Part shown: one piece after another, positions 2,481 through 26,869 of the stretch
Numbering within the stretch: position 1 is the stretch's first letter
Layout of the letters: each line of letters starts with the position of its first letter
Origin: a virus
Reading direction: 5' to 3' (one strand)
Virus record (IMG/VR): IMGVR_UViG_3300030406_004769
Coordinates: 13,289-43,056 of that record
DNA: 29,768 bases
The notes under the pieces: model-generated
What the model was told of the DNA's origin: nothing
What the model saw: only the letters and a program-made list of their open reading frames with translations
The model's database searches: none
Program-made: the position numbers and the translations under genes

Positions 2481-4391
2481 TTAGAACGAGCCACCATCTA
2501 CGGTTATATTTTCTAATTGTCTTAATGAACCATCATGACTAATCACCGCTGATAATCCTGCAGCATCTTTGATGAATACACCACCTGCTTCAATCGTAGC
2601 ATGTGTGGTATTAGTTAATACACTTGTGCTTTCTGATACGTCTGCACCAAAGGCAATTCTACCTACTGAATCATCCCAGAAGACTGCTGCTTTCTTTGCA
2701 GAACCACTATAATAATGGAATATTAAACCAACGTCTATGTTAGCATCTGATGATGGAGCAACTAATGATCCACCACTATTAACAAGACCTACCTCAATCA
2801 AACTATCCTCAACCTTTAAGGTTTCAGTATTGATTATTGATTGTGATCCTAATACTGTGAATGTTCCATTAACTGTTAGGTTATCATCAATAGTAACTGT
2901 TCCACCAGCAGAGTCTATAGTTAAGTTACCAGATGACGTATCTAATTCATTATCACCAGTAACACCAACTTGTATATTACCACCAGTAAGGTCTGTAAAT
3001 GTTCCAGCACCAGCAGACGCACCACCAATGGTTACTCCATCAATAGTACCACCATTGATATCTGCAGTATCAGCAACTAATGAGTCAATCTGTGCAGTTC
3101 CATCAATGAATAGATCCTGCCACTCGTTATCAGATGATCCTAAGTCCCTTGCACCATCTGTAGATGGAAGTAAGTCGCTATCAAATCTACCAGTTGCAGT
3201 AATAGTGTCTGTTGTAGCGTTACCTAGATCAACATTACCTTTAGCATTTAATAAACCTTCAAATGTCGCATCATGAGGTGTATTGACTGCATTTGAATGA
3301 GTAATAACAGCATTACCCATCTTAGCATGGGAAGTGCACTGATAATGTAAAACAGCAGGTGTAGTGTCTGAGATTGTAATCTCAGTATAAGTATTCTGAA
3401 AACTTACACCAGTTGTATAATTATATACCTTATCAACATCTAGGTAAAACTTTAATGGATGACTTCCTGTATTGTCATTCGTAAATCTGTAAGTTTTACC
3501 TGGAGTTAAGTGTAGTATTGGTGCTTCTACACCATCAATCTTATATCCATTATTACTACCTGAACCATTATATCTGTGTGCTGCGGATTTTGCTGCAACT
3601 GATACAGTAAAGTTCTGTGTGGTAGCAGAGTGTGGTGCTTGTAGATATGAAAATCCTTTTAACGCTGTTGTAGTTGTTACACCAGAATTGTTAATTGCAT
3701 CTGCTTCTAAAGTACCATCTAAGTATAAATGTCTCCATTGCTGTGTGGCTGAACCTAAATCAAAAGTATCATCGTCATCTGGAACAAGACTAGAAGCAAA
3801 CTCACCACCGACTACGATATCATCTGCTGTTGAATCACCAAGTCTAACTGTTCCACCACGAAATGTTACGATACCTATAAATTCTGATTCACCACCAACA
3901 AACAATCTATCTGTTACTGAAAGTGCTGCACCAACATGAACACTCTTCTCTATACCAACACCACCTTCAACTATTAAAGCTCCTGTATCTTTGCTAGTTG
4001 AATCTGTAGTATCTGATATAGTGATAGGACCAACAAGTGTTCCACTTGTCATCCATGATAAACCACCACTACCGTCATTTTGAAGAATACCATTAGTGGC
4101 GTTAGTAGCAGGAAGTGTATATGTTAAGTTACCACCTAATGTTGCAGGTGCTTTAAGTTCTATATAATTGTCGCCATTACTTGCACCTTCTACGACTCTT
4201 ACCGCAGAACCAGCAGTGTTAGTTTCTCTTGTCCAGTACCTATGTGATCCGAAAAATTTATTATTGCCTGAAGTACCATCCAGACCGACATAAAAATCAA
4301 ATTCATCAGTTACAAACGCTGGTTCACCTGCTTTCAGAGCAGGTAAACTACTGTTGGCACCTCTTTTAAACTTTATTACAGGAGCAGCCAT
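2481..4391 (-). CDS. Tail-fibre-like virion protein with cupredoxin-like domain
   Basis: 636 residues. Residues 1-50 (PVIKFKRG; GEPAFVTDEFDFYVGLDGT) match the attachment domain common at the N-terminus of phage fibre and tropism-determinant proteins. Shaft-type repeats follow: residues 182-232 and 387-438 share the pattern LG(D/N)xTxD...LxPxxDxxxDLGSxxxxWxxLxxDGT. Between them, residues about 260-365 resemble a cupredoxin (LTPGKTYRFTNDNTGSHPLKF; LHYQCTSHAKMGNAV), with candidate copper ligands His311, Cys352, His355 and Met358. The C-terminal region (GLIFHYYSGSAKKAAVFWDD, about 555-574) resembles C-terminal parts of marine phage structural proteins, and the protein ends DGGSF. The start has AAAAGG 12 bases upstream and a late-type promoter before it, and the gene ends at an intrinsic terminator. 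The likely role is a peripheral fibre contacting the host surface; which fibre is not known. Confidence 0.82.
   Translation of the reverse strand: MAAPVIKFKRGANSSLPALKAGEPAFVTDEFDFYVGLDGTSGNNKFFGSHRYWTRETNTAGSAVRVVEGASNGDNYIELKAPATLGGNLTYTLPATNATNGILQNDGSGGLSWMTSGTLVGPITISDTTDSTSKDTGALIVEGGVGIEKSVHVGAALSVTDRLFVGGESEFIGIVTFRGGTVRLGDSTADDIVVGGEFASSLVPDDDDTFDLGSATQQWRHLYLDGTLEADAINNSGVTTTTALKGFSYLQAPHSATTQNFTVSVAAKSAAHRYNGSGSNNGYKIDGVEAPILHLTPGKTYRFTNDNTGSHPLKFYLDVDKVYNYTTGVSFQNTYTEITISDTTPAVLHYQCTSHAKMGNAVITHSNAVNTPHDATFEGLLNAKGNVDLGNATTDTITATGRFDSDLLPSTDGARDLGSSDNEWQDLFIDGTAQIDSLVADTADINGGTIDGVTIGGASAGAGTFTDLTGGNIQVGVTGDNELDTSSGNLTIDSAGGTVTIDDNLTVNGTFTVLGSQSIINTETLKVEDSLIEVGLVNSGGSLVAPSSDANIDVGLIFHYYSGSAKKAAVFWDDSVGRIAFGADVSESTSVLTNTTHATIEAGGVFIKDAAGLSAVISHDGSLRQLENITVDGGSF
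3078..3233 (-). repeat. Shaft repeat copy 2 in fibre protein
   Basis: Residues about 387-438 (VDLGNATTDTITATGRFDSD, then DLGSSDNEWQDLFIDGT). It aligns with the copy at 3696-3848 at the protein level, sharing LG, LxP, DLGS, W, L and DGT. It flanks the cupredoxin-like domain on the C-terminal side. Confidence 0.7.
3297..3614 (-). other. Cupredoxin-like domain within the fibre gene
   Basis: Residues about 260-365 of the fibre protein. The order of elements fits a small cupredoxin: a beta-rich start, LTPGKTYRFTNDNTGSHPLKF with a His in the first ligand position, a middle TEITISDTTPAVLHY strand region, and the C-x2-H-x2-M loop QCTSHAKMG. All four type-1 copper ligand positions (His, Cys, His, Met) are present. 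Metal binding is inferred, not shown. Confidence 0.68.
3696..3848 (-). repeat. Shaft repeat copy 1 in fibre protein
   Basis: Residues about 182-232 (VRLGDSTADDIVVGGEFASS, then DLGSATQQWRHLYLDGT). It matches the copy at 3078-3233 and flanks the cupredoxin-like domain on the N-terminal side. LGS-x4-W-x2-L-x2-DGT is a motif common in phage fibre shafts. Confidence 0.7.
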
Positions 4392-4440: not shown

Positions 4441-4722
4441 TCAGAACGTTCCAGCGTCAAAAGCGTCATCATCAACTGAATCTGCTAGGTCAACAATTTG
4501 TGCTGCATCTACGTGTAAGTATTTTTGGGAGTTGGTATCATACATTAAAAATGTATTATCTGCCCTTTGACTCACATCAATATCTTGAACTTGTTCAAGT
4601 TCTTGAAGTGTTGCCAGAGTTGTAGTCGCTGCTTTTTCAGAAGCAACAACCTTTTTGACTGTACGTTGTCCAATCCTAATAGTTATAGGATTAACATTTT
4701 TTACTACTCTTATGCTAGCCAT
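4441..4722 (-). CDS. Small virion-associated protein, 93 residues
   Basis: 93 residues. The N-terminal third is basic and beta-like (MASIRVVKNVNPITIRIG). The C-terminal part (NTFLMYDTNSQKYLHVDAAQ, then IVDLADSVDDDAFDAGTF) is of a kind seen in small structural proteins of marine T4-like phages. The final AGTF recalls the GGSF end of the fibre protein encoded next. The ATG overlaps the stop of the 116-residue gene (TAATG), so the two are probably made together. Their place between the DUF4815 protein and the fibre suggests fibre or baseplate accessory proteins. No enzymatic motif is seen. Confidence 0.75.
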   Translation of the reverse strand: MASIRVVKNVNPITIRIGQRTVKKVVASEKAATTTLATLQELEQVQDIDVSQRADNTFLMYDTNSQKYLHVDAAQIVDLADSVDDDAFDAGTF

Positions 4723-13080: not shown

Positions 13081-14637
13081 TTAGAATTCTAGAATAATTT
13101 TAACATCTTCTTTTTGTCTAGCGTTTCTCGTAATCAAAGGACGATTATCAAGATAAACTATATCACCTGACTTTTTATTTATCTCAGGATTAGACACCCC
13201 TTGTGTAAACTGTGTGTCTAATGAGATTAACTTAGTGCCTGTTGGATTTGTGCTAACACCTGTAAATCCAGTATCTATAGATCCATTGAATCCACTAGTC
13301 CCACAATTAATTTGATTAGTATTAGACTCAAAGGCATGAACTTTAGCGAATGTTGATACTCCAACATAATCTATTGTATCAAATGAAGTCTGATTCAAGA
13401 AACTTGATCTATCCTGAACAAACTTTATAACTTTGGTGTCTACATCATATGCTGCAACAAATCCTTTTGCTGTTCCAGCAGTAACTACCTGACTGATAGT
13501 TTCACCAATTTGTGGTGATCCATTTGCAGTTGATAGTTTCAATGCACCTACAGACGAAAATGTAGGGTCTGTGAATAGTGCAGTGGATCCTATGGATGTT
13601 GGATTCTTAAGAATACCAATTTGAGAAAAACTAGTATTTACAGGAAAATCATTTGTTGTGGATGTATCAAATCTAGCAAATACTAAAACCCTATCTGATC
13701 CTAACTCCTTGTAGATATCATGACCATGACCTTTAGATGGTGGGATTATTGGTATTAAATTTGCTTTAGTAGATGCACTCGTATTACCAATCGCACCTAA
13801 ATCAACCATACCATAAGTATATCCTTTACCACCTGCAGAAACTACTGCATTTGTGACTTTTCCATTTACGACATCAACAACGACTTTACCACCTGTACCA
13901 TCACCAAGTATGTTTACCTCTTGACCAGTTCCATTTGAGTATCCTACTCCCTGATTTTCAATGTAAACTTTTTTAATTTGATTATTGTTAACATCAGAAT
14001 CACCATTGTCTCTAACTGCTACAACTTGAGAATCAGTTGACGTTGACCAATTATTAGATACAGAAATAAAATCTGTTGAGTCAAATTTAATAATGTCGCT
14101 AGGAGATACAGTGAATAAGTACTTCCACAAATAACCATCTCCGCTTGTACCAGCTTTAGATGGTTCCAAATCAGTAAATGTTGGTTCATCTAAAGAAGAA
14201 TTACCAGTAGTGTTAATACCAGAGGATCCATTATCAATACAAATATAAACTTTAAAATCACTATTCATAACATAGTAATTTGAATCATATAATCTTGCTG
14301 ATCCTGTGATAGGTGATGTATTATTCAGGTTATAGTCGTGACGATACATCTCATACTTGGTTCCTCTTGTCCAAGATATTTTTCTTACAAGTCTTCTAAC
14401 GTTATCAGAAGTGACTTTCTTTCCAAAAGACATATTATCTCCTACAAAATTCATGTAGTTAATATTATCTGTTGGACTTGGTGTATCAGTATTAAAATCT
14501 GTTTTTCTACCAAACCCTGATGTAGTTGGATTGGACAGACCAACAAACACGTAGTAAGAATTGTTAGAGTCTGTAACGTTATCTACAAAATTACTTGCGT
14601 TTAATATTCTAAACTGATCTGTTACAATAGCGGCCAT
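13081..14637 (-). CDS. 8: Baseplate wedge protein gp8
   Basis: 518 residues, against 334 in T4. gp8 is a wedge component of the baseplate, bound to gp7 and gp10 in T4. The N-terminal block (AAIVTDQFRILNASNFVDNV, then NSYYVFVGLSNP and RLVRKISWTRGTKYEMYRHD) and DGYLWKYLFTVSPSD near residue 168 are characteristic of marine T4-like gp8. Extra length comes partly from residues about 219-279, which carry the glycine-rich repeat pair GVGYSNGTG and GGKGYTYG also found in gp14 and the giant protein. It starts 40 bases after the giant gene, behind a consensus late promoter, with a very short leader that has no Shine-Dalgarno sequence. The downstream gene follows three bases after its stop. Confidence 0.92.
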   Translation of the reverse strand: MAAIVTDQFRILNASNFVDNVTDSNNSYYVFVGLSNPTTSGFGRKTDFNTDTPSPTDNINYMNFVGDNMSFGKKVTSDNVRRLVRKISWTRGTKYEMYRHDYNLNNTSPITGSARLYDSNYYVMNSDFKVYICIDNGSSGINTTGNSSLDEPTFTDLEPSKAGTSGDGYLWKYLFTVSPSDIIKFDSTDFISVSNNWSTSTDSQVVAVRDNGDSDVNNNQIKKVYIENQGVGYSNGTGQEVNILGDGTGGKVVVDVVNGKVTNAVVSAGGKGYTYGMVDLGAIGNTSASTKANLIPIIPPSKGHGHDIYKELGSDRVLVFARFDTSTTNDFPVNTSFSQIGILKNPTSIGSTALFTDPTFSSVGALKLSTANGSPQIGETISQVVTAGTAKGFVAAYDVDTKVIKFVQDRSSFLNQTSFDTIDYVGVSTFAKVHAFESNTNQINCGTSGFNGSIDTGFTGVSTNPTGTKLISLDTQFTQGVSNPEINKKSGDIVYLDNRPLITRNARQKEDVKIILEF

Positions 14638-14677: not shown

Positions 14678-17600
14678 TTATTTACTTAATCCACCAGTAT
14701 CTCTTAAACCTTTCCCTCGTCTCTGTATTATAGGGAAGGTTGAGAGACCTGTAGTAGCGGTAAATCCAGTAACTCCAATAGATATTGGAGAACTTGATCT
14801 TGTGAATCCTGAGATCTTACCGAACGATAATGTTCCGCAAGGATTAGTTGCTGAACCAGTTGTAGCAATACCTACAACACTTGTTGTTGATAATATGTTA
14901 CATGTTAATACACCTGCTTTAGTATCAACATATATTTCATCAACTTTATATACATTATCTACGAAGGTGTTACCTATACTTACGATTGATGAATCATGTC
15001 CATCAATAGAAGTAATTCCATACCCAGTCACGGTATCAGATATGAGGATTCTATCACCATCAGATATTGGCGAAGTGCCTTTGGTATCACCAAGACTTGG
15101 ATGTGTGATGAAAAATTCAATTCCAAGAGGATGACCACCAATACCTGTTGCAGTCTGAATTCCAGTGATAATACCAGAGAATCCAGTAGCACCAGCACCA
15201 GTTATGTTTTCAAGTGATACATTAGGTAATGCGGTAATTACTTGTGGTGGAATCGAATGTGTATATCCAAGACCAGGATTTGTAATATTTGCAGTTCCAG
15301 ATAATGTACCGTTTACAACACTTAGTGTCGCTGACGCAGTAGTTCCAATGCCTACACCTATTGCACTTGGAGCAGATATCTTAACATCTACTGTGGATCC
15401 AGTATATCCTGATCCACCACTGCCTATGGTAAGTGCACTGATTGTACCTGCTGCAGACACAGTTGCTGTAATAGCAGCAGCAACAGGATCTCCAGACGTA
15501 TTCACAATCAAAGCGTCAAGATCTCCACCACCTTCATAATTAAATATTCTTGCATTGTCTACGAATAGATCAGTGCCTGATGATGAAAGATCACTTATAA
15601 TTCTACTTGTTGGGTAAACAATTGGTTCAATAGAATCTCTTGCTTTTGAAACTGCTTCACCAGCGATGTTCTTATCTACTTTTTGTTTAGTCCAACTTAT
15701 AGGTCTTGATACAGTGCTTATACCTAAACCTGTGTATAAATTTGTCTCTACCTTGTCTGAAGTTGTAATATTGTAAATTGTTCTTGGATCTTGAGTAAGT
15801 GTATTTGGATCGCTATCTCTCTTTTTAAGGGTAAGAATATCACCTTGTTTAACAGTTTCTACAGTGTTAACTGAAAGACTATCTGTACCACGGGATCCTC
15901 TGTAGAAAAATATATCAACTTTATCATCTTTATCAGGTGCTTCACTAAAGGTAAATGATGTACCACCTTCAAACTGGTAGTGTTGACCAGGTTCCTGTAT
16001 TACACCATTTACAAATATTAGGAGTACAGCGTTCAAATCAATCTCAGGGTTGTTTGTTTCAAAACTGAGTAGTTCTTTATTAAATTCTAATGGGAATCTT
16101 GTCCTTGAACCATTTTGTAAGTTCTTAATAGAATCTACATTATCTAATTCACCAAACTGCCATGATGCAAATGAATCAGTGAATGTCTCAAGAACAGTTA
16201 ATTCAAAGTCTTGAACTACTGATCCTAATCCACGATCAGTTACAAGTCCAACTGGTTTGAATACATCACCCTTTCTGAAACCATATCCTGGTCTTGAAAT
16301 TTTAAATGATTTTACCTCACGGAGAGTAGATCCTATACCTACTGTGCTTGTTGGACCTACGTCAACAGATATTAATAGATTTCTACCAGTCTCAGTTGTC
16401 GCACCAACGCCTAATCTTGATACACCAACAACTTCAAGATTCTCATATGATGGTTGTGGTATGTTGATTTGTGGTTGTACGTAGCCAGTTCCACCATTTG
16501 CAACTGTAAATGTGAGTGTTCCTCCTACGCCCACTGTCGCATTTACAACAGCACCAGTTCCTGCACCACCACCAGCACCAACATTAATTGTAATTGTATC
16601 AGTTGTTGTCGCTGTAATCGTTGTCTGTATACCTACAATTGGATCACCATTTGTTGATGTTGGTGTAGGTCCTGAGCGTGGATATGGATGAAGGGTTTTG
16701 AAATGATCCTTAGAGCACCTGAATACGATACCACCAGTATCAATACCAACTGTGTCGTTAACATTTAAATTATGAGATGGTATCGTAATAACAAACTCTC
16801 CACTAAATGAAGTGTACACTGCATTTGTCGCTGTGTATGCAGGACCTGCAAATGATCCCTTTCTGATAGATCCTATACCAGCACTCTCAAATCTATGCTC
16901 ATACGCTACATCTGTGACTCCAATCGCCACTGTACCCCTATATCCAGATCCATGTGTATCTGCAGTTCCTATTCCGACAGCAGTAATTACGCCATTCTGA
17001 TTCTTGACTGCGGTGACTGCAGCACCCACTAATGGAGCAAACCCTAATCCATTTGTTGATCCTAGTGAAACAATAACTCCACCTCTTGGTAGTTGGTTCT
17101 TATTAACATCTTCATTTGATAAGATTAAATTATTATTACTATCAGTGATGCCTGTAAAGGTTACGCTAGTAATTCCAGTCGCTCCCTCTACAAAATCATA
17201 AATGTTTCCAGAATTATTGGTAGTGGTTGGAGTCTGGAAAATATCATTTAAGAACAATACGCCACTTCCTGTCTCTATACCCGTTGTATTCGCACCACCC
17301 ACTGTAAGTGTGTATGTCGCACCTATACCTGTGAAATCTCTACTAATATTATCAAAAACAGTATTAGTCGTATAATCTTGTCTTTGATACACCCTTCCAC
17401 CAAAGGTTGATCTTGCTTCAGGAATAAGAGTTTCAGGATCAAAAGATCTGGTGTTATCACCTAATGGAGGTTCTGTAAAATGTATTTTACTACCCACAAA
17501 GTTATAAGATCCTAAATGAACTCTTGCTGTAGCACCATCATTATGTGAAGCAGCAGTAGATCCAACCACACCTCTGGTTACATCAATAAGACTGAACGCA

Positions 17601-20600
17601 CCAGATCCAGTAATAGGTCCGACTGCTGTTGTTCCAAGACCAACTAAGTTCACCTTCATAAACTCATCATCAACCTTAATTAAATCACCACTAGCAATCG
17701 TACCAATACCTGATAGTGCAAATACTGTTTCACCTGCACCCACAGATCCATAATTATCTTGTAAGGTATATGATAACTTAGTAAATGCTATTGGACTCTG
17801 AGCAACACCATCAATTGAAATAATTGCTTTGGATAGTTTCTTATCCATTGTAAGGGTATGTGCGTTACCAGCACCAGCAGATGAGAAATTGATAGCAGTT
17901 CCAGCAAGGGCATTGTTTCTTGTTGTCGCTAGTTTAAATTCATCAGATCCAGTCTTGATCGCATATACAGTGGTTGGAATATTACTTCCTCCTGTTTGTA
18001 TACTAGTTGCTGTAACACCTGAGAAAGTAGATCCAAATGCGTAAGTTAGTTTTTCACCAGTATTGAAGAAATGATCTGGTACATTGAATATGTTTGTTGA
18101 TACATCTAATGCTGTGGTTGGATCAAAAGTTTTCTGGAATATCGGAACACCCTCATGTTTGATATCAAAGTCAGTTCTGTTAACTCTATTTCCATTTCTG
18201 GCGTTGTAACCAGCAGTGATCACCTCTTCCCTTATAGTTCCATACGATAATGCATCAGGGATATTAACTAAATCAGATGTAGTTTGAATAATTTCACTAT
18301 GTGTCTGAACAGTGACGTTTGATATACCTGCATCTGGGAAAAACTTAATATCAAGATTAGATCCATTAAATTCAGATCCAAATGTTCCAATACCTGTGGT
18401 ATTTCCAGTTCCAACTGGTAAAAATGGATATTGGGTGATATATGAGTCGGTAGTATCATTAATTATAAGGAATTGATGTAGTGCAGAACTATTACCATAT
18501 CCTACCTTAGCGATTGCCTTAACAGTTGTAACATCAGATTTTCCTACACTGAAAACAGTTCCAGTAGAAGCGATGCTTACATAGTTTGTTTGCAATCTAG
18601 CAGAATTGACTGAAGAATCTGGTTGTCCAGATGCTTTGAATGTATGAGTTCCAATCCCTGAAGCAGTTGTTCCAAATCCAACTATCTTAGTCCTTACAGT
18701 AACATCATTAGGATCGGTGTTTATATAATCAAGTGTTAATATCCCAGAACTTATACTTGAAGTAAATGTTCCAATAAATCTATCAGATATTGAATCATTT
18801 GCATCATTATCAAAGTAAAACTCTGATGCAAAGGTATTAGTATTATCATGATCTATGAATATTTCAGCATAAGTTCTTTCATTAGTGGTCGCATTTAATA
18901 TTTCAGCATTTACAAATAGAGATTCAGTTTTTGCTACCTCTCTGTAGAGTAAGTTATTTGTAGATCCTGCACTAATTATTTGATTAGATGATATTAAATC
19001 AACAAAACCTACTGTTATTGAGGTAGATCCAATGCCTGATGATGTAAATTTATTTTTAATAATTTTTAAATCATAATCAGTATTAAACTTTTCAAATGGT
19101 GTAAATCTAAGACTTAAAGTATTATCAGTTAAATCACCCTCTATATTTGCAATTTGGCGATCAGACCTATTATCAAGAGATCCCTTCTCAAAGGTTATAA
19201 TATCTCCTGTTGGAGATGGTAATGTTATTATCTCTGTTGCCTGTCTCTCACTACCTGCTGGATCAATAACTTGAACTAAAAATCTAGAGTATCCATCTAA
19301 CAAATTGTAGTCGTGAGCATCTACAAATAATTCTGATTCAGATCCACCAGCGTTAGAGAATTGTGAACTGATATCATCAATTGATAATACTCTATTACTA
19401 ATACAATTGATAAAATCTGATAACTTTTTGTTGTTAAATTTAATAAATTTAGATTTAGTTGGATTGAGGTCATCTGGTAAAGCATCAACATCTATACCTA
19501 GATCAAAGAAATTAAGTGTATCAACTCTATTTTCAGTTATAATATCTAATGTGGCGGTGCTAGTTGATTCTAAACTTGATCCTATTGATACTTTACTTAC
19601 ATTGGTGATACCAGTATCAGAAAAATTCTTCAATCCTGTTGGATGAACCAATCCATTTACGGTTGATGATAGTTTATCATATGTTTGACTACTCTTGATT
19701 GTATATGATAAATTCTGATAGTAATCATTATCAGGTAACACTTGATAATCTAAATTTAATTTACCAGTATCATTTGACCACCCAGTGTCTTTTCTTAATG
19801 AATAATCAACTTTAAATATCGCCCTATTGTCTTTGAATATCTTAATTGTAGCAAGAGTTCCTGAATTTTGACCAAATATTTGATCACCAACTTTTAGTTC
19901 ATATGTTCCAAATACTTTTACTGTATCATTTAAATTTTCAGTGATAACCAAATCTCTCTCAATAAAACTAGTTCCCACTTTTGTAAATATCTTTTCACCT
20001 ACTAAGAACGCTTTAGGTTTTTGTGTTACTCTAAAGATTGGGTAATTAGTCTTCTTAACGATAGATGCAAAAGAATTTTGTGATGTAACAGCGATACCAG
20101 GATTTGTTGTTACGAATTTTGATGCGTCAAATACTAATTTTGCTGGATTTGTGTTTGAATATGAAATTACATCATAAAAATTATATTTGTTATCTGCAGA
20201 ATTAAACCCATCACCTGGTGTATTTGGATTACTGTCGTCAATATTAACTATTCCCTCAACGAAAACTTTATCACCTACAGCAAATGGTGCTGCAGTAAAT
20301 CCAGATATTGGTGTTGCTAGGAAACAAGTAACTATACCTGCAGTGTTGGTAAAGCAACTATTAATACCAATACCATTATCATTGTTTTCAGCAAAAACCA
20401 AATTAGTAACTTCATTGAGACCAACAGGTGTTTCTAATATTTCGATTTCACTAATCGCTGCACCTTGTATTTTTGCTTTTAATACACCTGTATCATATTT
20501 TGTTCCAGTCTCTGGATTTACAAGTGATAAATCTGGAGGTGAGCTATAACCTTTACCGCCATCAACTATTTCTATATCTACTATTTCATTTCTATCTACA

Positions 20601-23600
20601 ACAGTAATATTGGGTGATATGTAAACCTCTGGGTTTAATGTCTTATCTGCGGAGAAGTCAAAACCTTGATCATTAATCGTAAACTCATTAATTCTACCAA
20701 CTGTTTCTGATACAGGAATTATATCTGCATTAATTCCATTAGTTGATGCGATACTTACAAACTCAGGTAGTTTTTTGTAGTTTGCACCACCAAATGAAAG
20801 GTTCAATGAACCAACTCCACCCTCTGCTGCATATGATTTAGTCGTGTAAGATAAATCTGCAGTTGTTTTAACATACGATAACTGCTCTGGTGATTCACTA
20901 ACAGAGATATCAAACGTTGTTGCACCTACCCCAGAGATGGTATACGAACCATTATAACTACTATCCTCAAATATAATCTCAGAATAATTCCTTACATCAG
21001 TATCAGCAGTGCTTATAAATCCTGCTTTTTCTAATGAATAATAAACCTTAGTAGGTAAAGCATCATCATAGTATAGAGTTGTTGTGCTACCAGCACTAAT
21101 AACACTAAAGTTAATTGTTGATCCAATTGAAACTAATTCATTATTAAATTCTCTATCATAGAATATTTTTAAATTATATCCGCTGAGTGAGGCATCTCCT
21201 GTATTGAAAACTAAGTTATTATTTTTAATAACATGAATGATAGGATTAATAGCACTAATTTCATGCAATGAACCCTGTGATTTAAGATCTACGATAAGTG
21301 GAGGTTCAGTCAAACTATCTTTTCTAGTTAAAGAAAGATTAAATTTATTATCATCAACTCTATGAACAAAGTATGATCCAGTTCCTAAACCACTTATAAA
21401 ATTACCAGAATCGTAGAATACCTTCTCTCCTGTTTCAAATCCATGAGATGTTAACTCAAATTCATTTTTAGTTAAATTTACAGATGTAGATCCAAATGAT
21501 ATTGGATTTACTAATATTTTATCATTTCCCGAATTATACTTAAGTAGTATAGATTCAGATGACCCTATCCCTAGAGACTGTTTAGGTTTTACTGTTAAAT
21601 TAACTATATCACCATTTTCAAGTCCATGGTCAGTTGATATTGATATAGTAGATTTAATTTTTTCAATTCTAGCAGTTTCTTGTGAAAAATTAGATTCAAT
21701 TGAATATATGAAGTCAGTATCATTATTATTAGAACTGAATGATCTGAAGAACAAACCATCAGTGCTGGTGGTTAAACCTACCTGAGTAGTCAAACCTATC
21801 AAATTATCAGATTTATTAATTACAAATAAAGTTTGTGTTTCACCAGATTCAGGAATATTGAAAGTTGCACTATCACCAGTGTTTGATACAACAATACGTG
21901 TACTACCACCTTTCGTTAAAGTAACTTGTTGATTTTGTGTAAATGGATGATTAGGTATGAATATACTTTGATTTGGAATTGAAGTTGGGATAGGAATATT
22001 ACCGATTACTATTGTGGATATTCCACTTTGACCAGATACTGTTCCAATTCCAAGTTCCTGATTTGGATTGAAGAATATCTTATCATCTAATTTTGATTCA
22101 AAGAAAGGTGTTGTTAGTGGAACTGTAAATTTATCAGTAATTTCTACTATCTCTGTTGATGCTGTATGGATTCCAGCAGTATGTTCAGTTCTTGCACGAA
22201 TTACTCTTCTATCAGGAAATACATTTAAGACGGTTAGTCTTGCTGTGCCTATTCCAATTGTTGACCCTACAGAAATGTTTGGAACATTTGAGACAAATAC
22301 ATCAGTCACTATACCTGCTGCAGTAATCGCTGGAGTATCTGCAATAAGTTTAGTTTTTTCTGAAGAGACTCCAATTACATGTTCCCCGTTTAATTTCGCA
22401 ATAAATGTAGATATTCCTGAAATTACTACAGTATCATTGTCTAGTAAAGTATGTGGACTATTTGTATGTACAGAAATCTCTCCTGATTTCTTCCAAATTA
22501 ATTTTGCACTCTGATAATCCTCTTTTATTGTTGCTAAATTTTCTACAGTTTTTCCTGTTACTGATCCCACTGATGCACTTATACCACCACCATTTGTACC
22601 TGTATTATCAAATTTAACTAAATCACCTACTTTATAACCTTGACCTGCTTCATGTATATCAAATGATTTTACAGATCCTTTACTTACAGACTCAATAGTA
22701 GAACTCTGTAGTAGTATTTCATTTGGTTCATTTATAAAATCATTATCAGATCCAGAATCTCCTACAGCGTATGGTAGGGTATTTCTTATCAAATCTGAAT
22801 TATTAAAATCAAATGTTTGATCAAAAACCTGATCAATTAATTTTGATCTATAAGTATTACCTATAAAGTATGGAAATACTGCAGATTGATTATTAGTATT
22901 AATTCCTACGAAATATGCATAAACACCATTCGGATACTCAGGAGTTTTACCAAATCTACCATTATGCTTATCCAAATCTCCTGAATTATCAAACTTGTAG
23001 TCATCTACAAAGAAACCATTTGTAAATCCAGATGGTCTGTCTGTAACATCAGATGGTGATAAAGCGTAACTAGTGGTAAGATTTCTTATCTGTGAGTTTG
23101 AATCTGAAGGATCATCGTAAGCATATGGTCCATAAATTGGATTACCATCATATGCCCAACCTATTATTGGCGAATGGTTGATACTATCATCACCAAAATC
23201 TGATAGACCTATAGCAGTTGTATATCCAACCATACCATACTGTAAACCACTCTCTGTGTCCCGTAATATCTCATCCCCATGTCTTTCATGGTTGTTAAGT
23301 GAAAGGTGTCTTACAGACGCTTCTAACTTAGAATTAGAACCTTTTGATATTACTTTGATTGTAGTTGTAGCAGCAGTGTATCCAATACCAGTGTTCAATA
23401 CAACAACGTCTGTTACCTTTTGGTTTTCAATTACTGCTCTTAATTTTGCACCTGTTCCTGAACCAATACCAACAACTTCTAAGTCGGGGGGTGAAGTATA
23501 CTCGCTTCCAGTATTCGTAACTTGAACATTTACTATTCTACCACCGTCAATTATTGGTTTTAATTCTGCACCTTTACCAGTTTTTACAGTAATTGTTGGT

Positions 23601-26600
23601 TTTTTATGAAAATTAATGGTTGTAGAACCATATCCAGTTCCATTATTGTACAAATAAACGTCAGAAATATATCCTTTTATAACAGGTGTTGCAGTAATTA
23701 CTCCAACTCCTCCAATAATATCTGCATTTACTGTTACATTTATTGGTGGATATGCAAAAAACTGCTCACTACTTCCTATGGAAACTATATTTACATAATT
23801 ATTTCTATCATAATTTGCAGAAATTGTTCCAGCAGCACCTGCATTTGCTAATCTAAACTCATTCTCATTTAATTTAATTACTTTATATTGTAAGTTAGTG
23901 TCTAAACCACCAATAACTGTTCCGTCAGTGCTATAAGTAATTAATTCACCATCATTAAAACCATGATTTTTGAAGAAAATTGTATCATGTGCAGTGCTAA
24001 TTCCTGTAGGTTGAACAATTAATTTACGATTTTCAAATTCAGTACCTGCATTTATTACAGAAATTTTTGAAATAGTGTTATTTGCCTTCTTTGTCCTGAA
24101 TTTATGTGTACCAGATGTTTCTGCAGTTGTGAAACCAACGGTATTGATACCTGCAGAATAGTCTGCTTGAGTTTCATATAGATTAATTGTTTTGTTATTT
24201 ACAACCTCTGCAACATAAACCGATCCATTATTAAGGGTTAAACCAGTAATTAAATTAATTCCATCTTGGTAAGCGGTTGTGCGAATACCAACTCCTATCG
24301 CAGTATTACCATTTCTATTGTAAATTAATTCATCACCACTAATTAAATTATGATTTTGAAGAAAAGTAATATTATCATTTGTTACATCAACACCACCACC
24401 AACTGTATTCTGTCTTCCATCGAATGAAAGTGTTCTATGTCGCTCCTCTAATTGAGCATTAAGCAAAGCTCCTGTAGAATTACCACCTGTAATTGTTACT
24501 GATGATACCTTTTTTATATCAAAATCTTGAGGATCTACATAAACCTCTGTGAGTGTGCCTTTTACTATCGGTTGAACTAACGCAGTGGTTAAACCTGCTT
24601 CAACAGTCACAGAAGGTAAATTGATAACATCAAAGTTAGTTCCACCATTAAACACTCTAATGCTCTCTAGCGGTCCGTAGTAAACTTTGTCCTCAGACTT
24701 ATAGTTTATAACCTCTACACCATTCACAAGCATTCCAAGAGCACCTGGTGCTGTTACAGTATTATTTCCTGTTTTTATATCAAGGGAGTATGGAAATTTT
24801 CGTAATAAGTTTTGGGGATGGATAAATTGAGTTTTTTGTGAGACTAGAGTAAACTTGTGAAACCCTGATGATGAGGGTGCAGAAAAATATTCACGAGTTG
24901 GTGATATTGAATTATCAGAATCAATTAAAGATCTAGATCTATATAATTGAACTTTTTTCTTATCTGATAGAACTTTAACAAAATATGAAACTCCATCTTC
25001 TAATCCGTCAAGGGTATTATTCTCTGCATTATAAATTACCTCTTCTCCAGTTTTGAATGGAACATCACTATTAAAGACTATTACGCTGAACTTAAGTTTA
25101 TTGGTATCAAATTCTTGTAAGTTTGTGGATACAAGAGATGTTATAATCGCTTGATCAAGATTTTTAGTTAACGTATATGATGGAAGTGAACTAGCAGCAA
25201 CATAAAAACAGTTTTCCTTTTCTGTGTATAAATTCTGAATATCTGAGGTGATCAAATCATTTCCATAGACTAAAGGTGCACCACTACTATTAACTGTTTC
25301 TAATTTTCTCCGTATAGAATACTCTGTAGTCGCTGAAGGAGACCCACTTAAACCACCCAGAGTGACTTGTTTACCATTTATAGTCTGAACTGTCGCATCT
25401 GCAAAAGCAACAGTCTCAGACGCTCCTAGAAGCACATCAACAATATCACCAACCTTTAACGCAGATGGATCGGGGGTGGTTTTTAAATTAAAACCATTAT
25501 TTGTATTATCAACAAAAAATCTAGAACTTGTATTATAAATCCAAGAATTAGCAAATATTTGTTTTTGAGTTTTATCAAATTCTGGATTTTTTATCTTTTC
25601 ACCAACATTTTTAACATATATTTTTTCTCCTTCAGATACTGATGATACATCTCCTATTGTTTCAACGTCAGATAAGACTCCAGTAATTCTTATTTCTACC
25701 TTTTTTGTTAAATCCCCATCTTCATAACCAAAAAATACATCATTTGTCCTTATTGGTGATTTTACATCCATTGCATTATCGACACCAACACAACCTAAGA
25801 ATTGATTGATAGATTTTGATGAATATGTGATTATATTATCACCAGATAGTAAAGTTCCTGTTGTTCCAAACCCTACAGTGCTGTCTACAGTGATAACTGA
25901 TGATCCAACTGATACAGGATTAATGTTTGCAGTTTTAGGTTGTATTTCAAATGTTCCTTCAATTAAATCTCTATCATCAAACCCAACAAATAAACCTAAC
26001 TTGAAATATGTGCTGATTCCCGACCTCGTAAATATCTCAACCTCTGAAACTGATGCCTGTGTATCTAAATCTGATGCTTTTCTAATTGTTTGACCAACTA
26101 ATTTATCAGGATCTCCAGAAATTCTTTCTGCAACAACAATTTCTCTTCTTAAAAACTCTGCTGAAGATGGTTTTGGTAAATATTGCTCTAAATCTATAAC
26201 TTTTGGAACTTCACCAAATAATACTTTGAATAAAATCTTAAATGACTCTTCAGTTCCCTTCGCTTCATAGAATGACCTTGCTTCTTTAACAAAATTATTT
26301 ACATCAAGATCTTCTACAAAATCAACATTCTCTAAACCTGGTGTAAAAGTGTATTTTAACTTCCTATAAAACTCTTTAAGGAAATTAACACTTAAATTAA
26401 CAACATCACTACCTGCTTCATGCTCTACTTGGTTTGTTTCTTCAAAAAGTAGTTCTTCCGAATCAAGATTTGTTCTGTAACTCGAAATACCACTAAAACC
26501 CCTAACAACACCTGTGAAGGTGTTAGTATTAATCCCAGTATAAGTGCATATTTCATCACCAATTTTGAATAATCCATATTGAGAGGGAAATCCCTTAGTT

Positions 26601-26869
26601 GAATAAACTTGTACACTGTCTGTAGAGGATGATATGCCTGAATATAATGTAGTTTTACCAGATATTACCTCTGGAGTCAAATTATCTAGTTTTATGTACT
26701 GGTCAAGGTTATCTGCAAGATCTGTAGCACCTGATTGGTGCTCTTGAGAAATGTAATATTGTTTTAAGAAGTCGAGCGTCTTTGGACTCTCTGCCCGAAT
26801 GAAGTCAGGGAGTTGATTCGCTAGTATTTGCTGAACCTGTACTCGTTTCTCAAAACCAGTTTGTATCAT
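14678..26869 (-). CDS. Giant modular virion protein at the gp7 position (VrlC-like)
   Basis: 4063 residues in one unbroken frame, 41% of the window. It lies between gp6 and gp8, where T4 has gp7 (1032 residues). Marine T4-like phages carry a very long 'virion structural' or VrlC-like gene at this position. The N-terminal block (MIQTGFEKRVQVQQILANQL; RAESPKTLDFLKQYY; EESFKILFKVLFGEVPKVID, to about residue 230) is the conserved part. The rest is modular. About eight beta-type units with a HGxxxGDxVxY core lie between residues 590 and 3370. Many GxGYxxPP units are present. A YHYH-like domain lies at about 1183-1343. A FVNGVIQEPGQHYQFEGG unit lies near 3616. Repeated GIGST/GIST turns are scattered throughout. 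No transmembrane or enzyme motif is evident. It starts after a three-base gap from gp6. Baseplate wedge scaffold and fibre-like surface is the inferred role; equivalence to gp7 is by position only. Confidence 0.85.
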   Translation of the reverse strand: MIQTGFEKRVQVQQILANQLPDFIRAESPKTLDFLKQYYISQEHQSGATDLADNLDQYIKLDNLTPEVISGKTTLYSGISSSTDSVQVYSTKGFPSQYGLFKIGDEICTYTGINTNTFTGVVRGFSGISSYRTNLDSEELLFEETNQVEHEAGSDVVNLSVNFLKEFYRKLKYTFTPGLENVDFVEDLDVNNFVKEARSFYEAKGTEESFKILFKVLFGEVPKVIDLEQYLPKPSSAEFLRREIVVAERISGDPDKLVGQTIRKASDLDTQASVSEVEIFTRSGISTYFKLGLFVGFDDRDLIEGTFEIQPKTANINPVSVGSSVITVDSTVGFGTTGTLLSGDNIITYSSKSINQFLGCVGVDNAMDVKSPIRTNDVFFGYEDGDLTKKVEIRITGVLSDVETIGDVSSVSEGEKIYVKNVGEKIKNPEFDKTQKQIFANSWIYNTSSRFFVDNTNNGFNLKTTPDPSALKVGDIVDVLLGASETVAFADATVQTINGKQVTLGGLSGSPSATTEYSIRRKLETVNSSGAPLVYGNDLITSDIQNLYTEKENCFYVAASSLPSYTLTKNLDQAIITSLVSTNLQEFDTNKLKFSVIVFNSDVPFKTGEEVIYNAENNTLDGLEDGVSYFVKVLSDKKKVQLYRSRSLIDSDNSISPTREYFSAPSSSGFHKFTLVSQKTQFIHPQNLLRKFPYSLDIKTGNNTVTAPGALGMLVNGVEVINYKSEDKVYYGPLESIRVFNGGTNFDVINLPSVTVEAGLTTALVQPIVKGTLTEVYVDPQDFDIKKVSSVTITGGNSTGALLNAQLEERHRTLSFDGRQNTVGGGVDVTNDNITFLQNHNLISGDELIYNRNGNTAIGVGIRTTAYQDGINLITGLTLNNGSVYVAEVVNNKTINLYETQADYSAGINTVGFTTAETSGTHKFRTKKANNTISKISVINAGTEFENRKLIVQPTGISTAHDTIFFKNHGFNDGELITYSTDGTVIGGLDTNLQYKVIKLNENEFRLANAGAAGTISANYDRNNYVNIVSIGSSEQFFAYPPINVTVNADIIGGVGVITATPVIKGYISDVYLYNNGTGYGSTTINFHKKPTITVKTGKGAELKPIIDGGRIVNVQVTNTGSEYTSPPDLEVVGIGSGTGAKLRAVIENQKVTDVVVLNTGIGYTAATTTIKVISKGSNSKLEASVRHLSLNNHERHGDEILRDTESGLQYGMVGYTTAIGLSDFGDDSINHSPIIGWAYDGNPIYGPYAYDDPSDSNSQIRNLTTSYALSPSDVTDRPSGFTNGFFVDDYKFDNSGDLDKHNGRFGKTPEYPNGVYAYFVGINTNNQSAVFPYFIGNTYRSKLIDQVFDQTFDFNNSDLIRNTLPYAVGDSGSDNDFINEPNEILLQSSTIESVSKGSVKSFDIHEAGQGYKVGDLVKFDNTGTNGGGISASVGSVTGKTVENLATIKEDYQSAKLIWKKSGEISVHTNSPHTLLDNDTVVISGISTFIAKLNGEHVIGVSSEKTKLIADTPAITAAGIVTDVFVSNVPNISVGSTIGIGTARLTVLNVFPDRRVIRARTEHTAGIHTASTEIVEITDKFTVPLTTPFFESKLDDKIFFNPNQELGIGTVSGQSGISTIVIGNIPIPTSIPNQSIFIPNHPFTQNQQVTLTKGGSTRIVVSNTGDSATFNIPESGETQTLFVINKSDNLIGLTTQVGLTTSTDGLFFRSFSSNNNDTDFIYSIESNFSQETARIEKIKSTISISTDHGLENGDIVNLTVKPKQSLGIGSSESILLKYNSGNDKILVNPISFGSTSVNLTKNEFELTSHGFETGEKVFYDSGNFISGLGTGSYFVHRVDDNKFNLSLTRKDSLTEPPLIVDLKSQGSLHEISAINPIIHVIKNNNLVFNTGDASLSGYNLKIFYDREFNNELVSIGSTINFSVISAGSTTTLYYDDALPTKVYYSLEKAGFISTADTDVRNYSEIIFEDSSYNGSYTISGVGATTFDISVSESPEQLSYVKTTADLSYTTKSYAAEGGVGSLNLSFGGANYKKLPEFVSIASTNGINADIIPVSETVGRINEFTINDQGFDFSADKTLNPEVYISPNITVVDRNEIVDIEIVDGGKGYSSPPDLSLVNPETGTKYDTGVLKAKIQGAAISEIEILETPVGLNEVTNLVFAENNDNGIGINSCFTNTAGIVTCFLATPISGFTAAPFAVGDKVFVEGIVNIDDSNPNTPGDGFNSADNKYNFYDVISYSNTNPAKLVFDASKFVTTNPGIAVTSQNSFASIVKKTNYPIFRVTQKPKAFLVGEKIFTKVGTSFIERDLVITENLNDTVKVFGTYELKVGDQIFGQNSGTLATIKIFKDNRAIFKVDYSLRKDTGWSNDTGKLNLDYQVLPDNDYYQNLSYTIKSSQTYDKLSSTVNGLVHPTGLKNFSDTGITNVSKVSIGSSLESTSTATLDIITENRVDTLNFFDLGIDVDALPDDLNPTKSKFIKFNNKKLSDFINCISNRVLSIDDISSQFSNAGGSESELFVDAHDYNLLDGYSRFLVQVIDPAGSERQATEIITLPSPTGDIITFEKGSLDNRSDRQIANIEGDLTDNTLSLRFTPFEKFNTDYDLKIIKNKFTSSGIGSTSITVGFVDLISSNQIISAGSTNNLLYREVAKTESLFVNAEILNATTNERTYAEIFIDHDNTNTFASEFYFDNDANDSISDRFIGTFTSSISSGILTLDYINTDPNDVTVRTKIVGFGTTASGIGTHTFKASGQPDSSVNSARLQTNYVSIASTGTVFSVGKSDVTTVKAIAKVGYGNSSALHQFLIINDTTDSYITQYPFLPVGTGNTTGIGTFGSEFNGSNLDIKFFPDAGISNVTVQTHSEIIQTTSDLVNIPDALSYGTIREEVITAGYNARNGNRVNRTDFDIKHEGVPIFQKTFDPTTALDVSTNIFNVPDHFFNTGEKLTYAFGSTFSGVTATSIQTGGSNIPTTVYAIKTGSDEFKLATTRNNALAGTAINFSSAGAGNAHTLTMDKKLSKAIISIDGVAQSPIAFTKLSYTLQDNYGSVGAGETVFALSGIGTIASGDLIKVDDEFMKVNLVGLGTTAVGPITGSGAFSLIDVTRGVVGSTAASHNDGATARVHLGSYNFVGSKIHFTEPPLGDNTRSFDPETLIPEARSTFGGRVYQRQDYTTNTVFDNISRDFTGIGATYTLTVGGANTTGIETGSGVLFLNDIFQTPTTTNNSGNIYDFVEGATGITSVTFTGITDSNNNLILSNEDVNKNQLPRGGVIVSLGSTNGLGFAPLVGAAVTAVKNQNGVITAVGIGTADTHGSGYRGTVAIGVTDVAYEHRFESAGIGSIRKGSFAGPAYTATNAVYTSFSGEFVITIPSHNLNVNDTVGIDTGGIVFRCSKDHFKTLHPYPRSGPTPTSTNGDPIVGIQTTITATTTDTITINVGAGGGAGTGAVVNATVGVGGTLTFTVANGGTGYVQPQINIPQPSYENLEVVGVSRLGVGATTETGRNLLISVDVGPTSTVGIGSTLREVKSFKISRPGYGFRKGDVFKPVGLVTDRGLGSVVQDFELTVLETFTDSFASWQFGELDNVDSIKNLQNGSRTRFPLEFNKELLSFETNNPEIDLNAVLLIFVNGVIQEPGQHYQFEGGTSFTFSEAPDKDDKVDIFFYRGSRGTDSLSVNTVETVKQGDILTLKKRDSDPNTLTQDPRTIYNITTSDKVETNLYTGLGISTVSRPISWTKQKVDKNIAGEAVSKARDSIEPIVYPTSRIISDLSSSGTDLFVDNARIFNYEGGGDLDALIVNTSGDPVAAAITATVSAAGTISALTIGSGGSGYTGSTVDVKISAPSAIGVGIGTTASATLSVVNGTLSGTANITNPGLGYTHSIPPQVITALPNVSLENITGAGATGFSGIITGIQTATGIGGHPLGIEFFITHPSLGDTKGTSPISDGDRILISDTVTGYGITSIDGHDSSIVSIGNTFVDNVYKVDEIYVDTKAGVLTCNILSTTSVVGIATTGSATNPCGTLSFGKISGFTRSSSPISIGVTGFTATTGLSTFPIIQRRGKGLRDTGGLSK
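22840..23320 (-). other. YHYH-like domain within the giant protein
   Basis: Residues about 1183-1343. Key elements in order are RHLSLNNHERHGDEIL, PIIGWAYDGNPIYGPYAY, FFVDDYKF, LDKHNGRFGKTPEYPNGVYA and FPYFIGNTY. GWAYDGNPIYGPY and the LDxxNGRxxxTPEYPxGxYAYF block match the core of the YHYH protein family, of unknown biochemical function, seen in bacterial surface proteins and some marine phage virion proteins. Confidence 0.72.

Follow-up and report, generated by a model that had tools for sequence, protein, structure and literature searches.

A predicted copper-binding cupredoxin domain is an exchangeable module of tail-fiber and baseplate proteins in marine phages

A tail-fiber gene in a viral genome fragment encodes a stretch with the four residues of a type-1 copper site, raising the question of whether a phage virion protein carries a true cupredoxin and whether that cupredoxin holds copper. 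The fragment, hereafter the window, is the whole 29,768-nucleotide stretch of DNA that was analyzed. Its gp8 (13081-14637) shares 59.7% identity with gp8 of the Prochlorococcus phages P-SSM2 and P-SSM5, indicating that the window phage is a T4-like marine phage of the same kind. The protein in question (Table 1) is identified as a tail fiber by its match to phrog_30742 and by a structural gene neighborhood of baseplate, gp8, and neck genes, the names neck and gp25/gp6 being taken from context. Its N-terminal Mtd_N-like module is kept across 78 relatives. An earlier note had placed a cupredoxin-like domain at 3297-3614 (residues 260-365), between two fiber shaft repeats. The repeats are real and the location holds, but the profile envelope extends the domain on both sides. 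The motif N-x-T/I-x-D-G/A/C-G-S/T/A-F ends nearly all fiber relatives (2481-2520 in the window), as if it were a capping or attachment signal, and a similar DAGTF closes a 93-aa ORF at 4441-4722.

Table 1. Coordinates of the fiber protein, its parts, the predicted copper ligands, and a ligand-less relative in the window
Feature	Positions	Strand	Description
Fiber protein carrying the domain	2481-4391	minus	636-aa ORF; PHROG tail fiber phrog_30742, E 1.7e-41
Mtd_N-like N-terminal tail-fiber module, weak	4272-4376	minus	Residues 6-40; Pfam PF18454, 22.9 bits, below the cutoff of 26.3
Shaft repeat copy 1	3714-3788	minus	Residues 202-226, LVPDDDDTFDLGSATQQWRHLYLDG
Cupredoxin-like domain	3285-3638	minus	Residues 252-369, about 118 residues; profile envelope, AlphaFold2 model, Foldseek
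His311, first predicted copper ligand	3459-3461	minus	Turn before strand 4 of the domain
Cys352, predicted copper ligand	3336-3338	minus	End of the penultimate strand
His355, predicted copper ligand	3327-3329	minus	Last loop of the domain
Met358, predicted axial ligand	3318-3320	minus	C-x2-H-x2-M, amicyanin-type
Shaft repeat copy 2	3096-3170	minus	Residues 408-432, LPSTDGARDLGSSDNEWQDLFIDG
Conserved C-terminal part of the fiber	2484-2933	minus	Last 150 residues, ending ...NITVDGGSF; present with or without the domain
Ligand-less relative of the domain	20975-21286	minus	Residues about 1862-1965 of a 4063-aa baseplate-type protein, ORF 14678-26869

All four putative ligands occupy the positions in the ORF that had been assigned to them, with LTPGKTYRFTND starting at residue 295, SHPLKF at residue 310, and LHYQCTSHAKMGNAV at residue 348. 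Their sequence, His ... Cys-x2-His-x(2-4)-Met, has the canonical order and place. The proposed likeness to plastocyanin is correct for the ligands and their order but not for their spacing, which is amicyanin-type, whereas plastocyanins such as those of Prochlorococcus have C-x2-H-x4-M. Cys352 is the sole cysteine of the fiber protein and Met358 one of three methionines; most close relatives with the domain likewise have just one cysteine. The pattern H-x(25-60)-C-x2-H-x(2-4)-M arose in 18 of 100,000 shuffles of the fiber protein, making chance an unreasonable origin for it, and conservation decides the matter. The six reading frames of the window contain no second occurrence. A pseudoazurin-type loop with Asn360 (C+8) as the axial ligand was rejected because Met is invariant and C+8 varies, and because Met stands at C+6 in the bona fide Copper-bind domains L363, L365, L367, and L389. 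Two further histidines, His272 and His349 (about 3576-3578 and 3345-3347; H23 and H100 of the domain), are invariant in 39 window-type copies and not in the wider family; they may mark a second metal or a packing feature.

The predicted structure is that of a cupredoxin. Given an alignment of 39 natural relatives, AlphaFold2 modeled the window domain as an all-beta sandwich (pLDDT 90.4, pTM 0.83). His311 lies immediately ahead of strand E64-67 (domain numbering), Cys352 closes E98-103, and His355 and Met358 fall in the loop preceding the last strand, E111-114; as modeled, these are the canonical cupredoxin positions relative to the strands. A Foldseek search of solved structures returned rusticyanin first (E 7e-4), then McoA, a two-domain laccase, CueO, and nitrite reductase, and all or nearly all of the nearest structures are cupredoxin-fold copper proteins. 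The predicted fold is the Greek-key beta sandwich of cupredoxins, with TM-scores for the window domain that are low (0.39-0.50). The compact relative L075, which shares 29-56% identity with most of its alignment, was modeled with a pLDDT of 93.9 and matched rusticyanin (E 2.2e-5), plastocyanins, amicyanin, AcoP, and a Nitrosopumilus cupredoxin at TM-scores of 0.5-0.6; each of its 50 listed PDB matches at E<=0.001 is a cupredoxin-fold copper protein. The comparison with cupredoxin structures that the earlier note had proposed as a check came out in favor of the cupredoxin fold for both domains. From the topology and strand positions, together with the alignment to known copper proteins, we infer that the four predicted ligands converge in one site. 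Fold matches in BFVD include "beta-sandwich proteins" of Pithovirus and Marseillevirus (A0A481Z7Q7, A0A481Z6J5, and A0A481YY19; 19-28% identity to the model) as well as cyanophage S8/S53 proteins.

Sequence profiles lead to the same family. Against PDB sequences, a profile of window-type domains found pseudoazurin best (E 0.0086), and the five best matches of a wider profile include a multicopper oxidase, nitrite reductases, and pseudoazurin. In a single hhalign comparison, profile A2 aligned with 48 Copper-bind domains gathered from cyanobacterial and archaeal genomes at a probability of 95% (E 1.6e-8), and the His, Cys, His, and Met ligands each fell in matching columns; this set holds bona fide members sharing the C-x2-H-x2-M loop. 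The secreted Prochlorococcus protein L324 matches both Copper-bind (33.7 bits against a cutoff of 21.2) and the phage profile (E 5.1e-10), forming a transitive link between the two. No Pfam or NCBIfam model scored above its curated cutoff for the window domain, PF00127 Copper-bind gave no match to it and a best E of 0.016 among 12 relatives, and a single-sequence search of PDB chains returned nothing useful. An isopeptide-fimbrial TIGR04226 match (15 bits against 30) was rejected as chance. Fold prediction and sequence comparison together leave us nearly certain that residues 252-369 are a genuine member of the cupredoxin superfamily. The nearest cellular relative found is a small plastocyanin-like protein that several Prochlorococcus genomes encode (L324 and L326-L331); it is secreted and differs from plastocyanin itself.

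Does the site bind copper? At 55 first-round IMG/VR loci, the ligands are retained wherever covered. Each of the four is present in 57/57 nonredundant marine phage copies (<72% mutual identity; median 44%, minimum 22%), in which the median column identity is 56%, although the scans that gathered these copies were seeded with peptides that contain the Cys-His loop, so that invariance at the loop is overstated. Loss of Cys352 and Met358 from homologs, named beforehand as a point that would tell against the site, is thus not seen among these 57. To reduce the seeding bias, 30 complete phage records were searched with a sensitive profile. They hold about 39 complete copies (37 intact and two interrupted by a long insertion) and 11 copies with no or one ligand, and none with two or three. 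This all-or-none pattern indicates that the fold tolerates loss of the ligands and that selection keeps the set whole.

The ligand-less copies bear directly on the idea that the domain is a plain structural beta sandwich whose conserved residues serve packing rather than metal. They are found mainly in giant baseplate proteins, where they persist, and one lies in the window itself; it shares 63% identity with L523, itself a profile match, and has a profile-profile probability of 96.5%. Another is in S-CREM2 ORF130, a protein that mass spectrometry has identified in virions (PMC10665884, Table 3). These copies show that the fold works without the site, as a plain sandwich would, and by the same token that packing is independent of the four residues. 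Where present, however, the ligands are the most conserved columns of the domain, and they disappear together. In phage S-B05 (L496), FPFYL replaces HPFYL and YYQASNVAGMGG replaces YYQCxxHxxMGG, so that His, Cys, and His are lost at once even though the loop keeps its length. We therefore regard the plain sandwich as highly improbable. The ligands are the best conserved residues, the fold can do without them, and when they are lost they go only together; on these grounds we predict from the sequence evidence that the domain probably binds copper.

The identity of the metal could still differ, with Zn(II) or Cu(I) acting purely as a structural staple in a site that would never work as a blue copper center. 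Zinc or Cu(I) can occupy His2CysMet sites, and phage fibers with metal staples are known, T4 gp37 being an example. On the other hand, the fold, the loop spacing, and the sequence all agree with copper cupredoxins, and Met is rare in zinc sites, where its conservation would not be required. A staple of this kind appears unlikely.

Presence or absence of the domain in related fibers shows how it is carried. Among relatives sharing the N- and C-terminal parts of the fiber, 22 have the domain and 56 do not, and when fibers of the L418/L421/L422/L424/L427 type are aligned with L416, L420, and L423, both flanks run on without it. The suggestion of an inserted module is borne out by these domain-free relatives and by the placement between shaft repeats; the domain is an exchangeable cassette, dispensable to the fiber. 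It was also thought that a cupredoxin in a phage fiber would be unusual, but many structural proteins of marine phages contain the module. Two scans of IMG/VR yielded 381 and 412 matches, and 54/54 diverse members match solely tail, baseplate, structural, or unnamed PHROGs (12 PHROGs). The many IMG/VR copies likewise led us to reject a domain peculiar to this phage, and its location within a fiber ORF excludes a free plastocyanin gene of the AMG type. The domain is seen in cyanophage gp7 and gp9 and in pelagiphage fibers, in phages of Synechococcus, Prochlorococcus, Pelagibacter, and Methylophilales. Annotated carriers include P-SSM2, P-SSM5, P-TIM68, Bellamy, S-TIM5, S-ShM2 (gp9), and P-HM2 (gp7), together with the podovirus P-GSP1, the Pelagibacter phages Mosig and Baldr, and Methylophilales phages (Melnitz). 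In L325, L129, L322, and L323, from a MAG labeled Euryarchaeota, a phage-like protein has an S8-type protease fused to the domain (YQCQVHGGMVGNIVV); the contigs look viral.

This distribution also bears on whether copper would be bound for its chemistry, through redox exchange with a protein of the host envelope or through copper capture or sensing at adsorption. The all-or-none loss of ligands fits such a role, as does the fact that all copies (57/57) keep the axial Met, a residue that in stellacyanins and laccases is often dispensable to cupredoxin fold and stability. However, the residues separating His355 from Met358, which normally contribute to the docking face, are free to vary and so imply no single partner; the hosts of the carrier phages differ in electron transport; and fiber relatives manage without the domain. 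A chemical role is consequently improbable, about as much so as a zinc or Cu(I) staple. Its broadest form, in which marine tailed phages would bear working blue-copper centers on their tails, with the copper state (redox or metal uptake) controlling fiber behavior or host attachment, we consider very doubtful.

We instead propose that copper would stabilize the module. Each domain would hold one copper ion, loaded outside the cytoplasm, either on release or in seawater. The ion would lock the beta sandwich and keep the module stable and exposed, and the exposed module may then act as a decoration or adhesion domain, as Ig-like domains do on other phages. Against copper loading stands the scarcity of free copper in the cytoplasm, the compartment in which phage proteins fold. 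Provided that copper is bound, a copper-stabilized decoration or adhesion module is a possible role, which we advance tentatively. The combined reading, a true cupredoxin with a complete type-1-like site, carried as a fiber-shaft cassette in the proposed copper-stabilized role, is one that we favor with moderate confidence.

While the fold and site are known, what appears new is their setting as an exchangeable tail-fiber and baseplate module with strict ligand conservation. Searches of the openly accessible literature turned up no phage virion described as carrying a cupredoxin, and none of Pfam, PHROGs, or NCBIfam names the module. Copper binding at this site would make copper-carrying particles of a large group of marine phages, tying adsorption or stability to a scarce, toxic metal. 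A module listed as tail fiber or hypothetical gains a named fold and a candidate metal, and related virion proteins offer a natural contrast, some having the copper site, some the domain without ligands, and some no domain.

Compared with amicyanin, plastocyanin, pseudoazurin, and rusticyanin (PF00127), the phage domain is alike in predicted fold and ligand order, with all ligands in register, and it has the C-x2-H-x2-M loop type in common with amicyanin. Those small blue copper proteins are free periplasmic or lumenal electron carriers, whereas the phage domain is a fiber module that has no signal peptide and scores below the Pfam cutoffs. The Prochlorococcus protein L324 (134 aa) resembles it in matching both Copper-bind and the phage profile, but stands alone, has a signal peptide, and shows C-x2-H-x4-M spacing. 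Within phages, the tail fiber family phrog_30742 and the baseplate wedge tail fiber connector family phrog_677 (cyanophage gp9) contain the same domain and are annotated as tail proteins only, their cupredoxin nature unnamed. The Ig-like and other beta-sandwich decoration domains of phages share with it a plug-in sandwich, a mosaic of presence and absence, and many host proteins. The phage domain differs from Ig-like decoration domains in having a cupredoxin rather than an Ig fold and a conserved four-residue predicted metal site.
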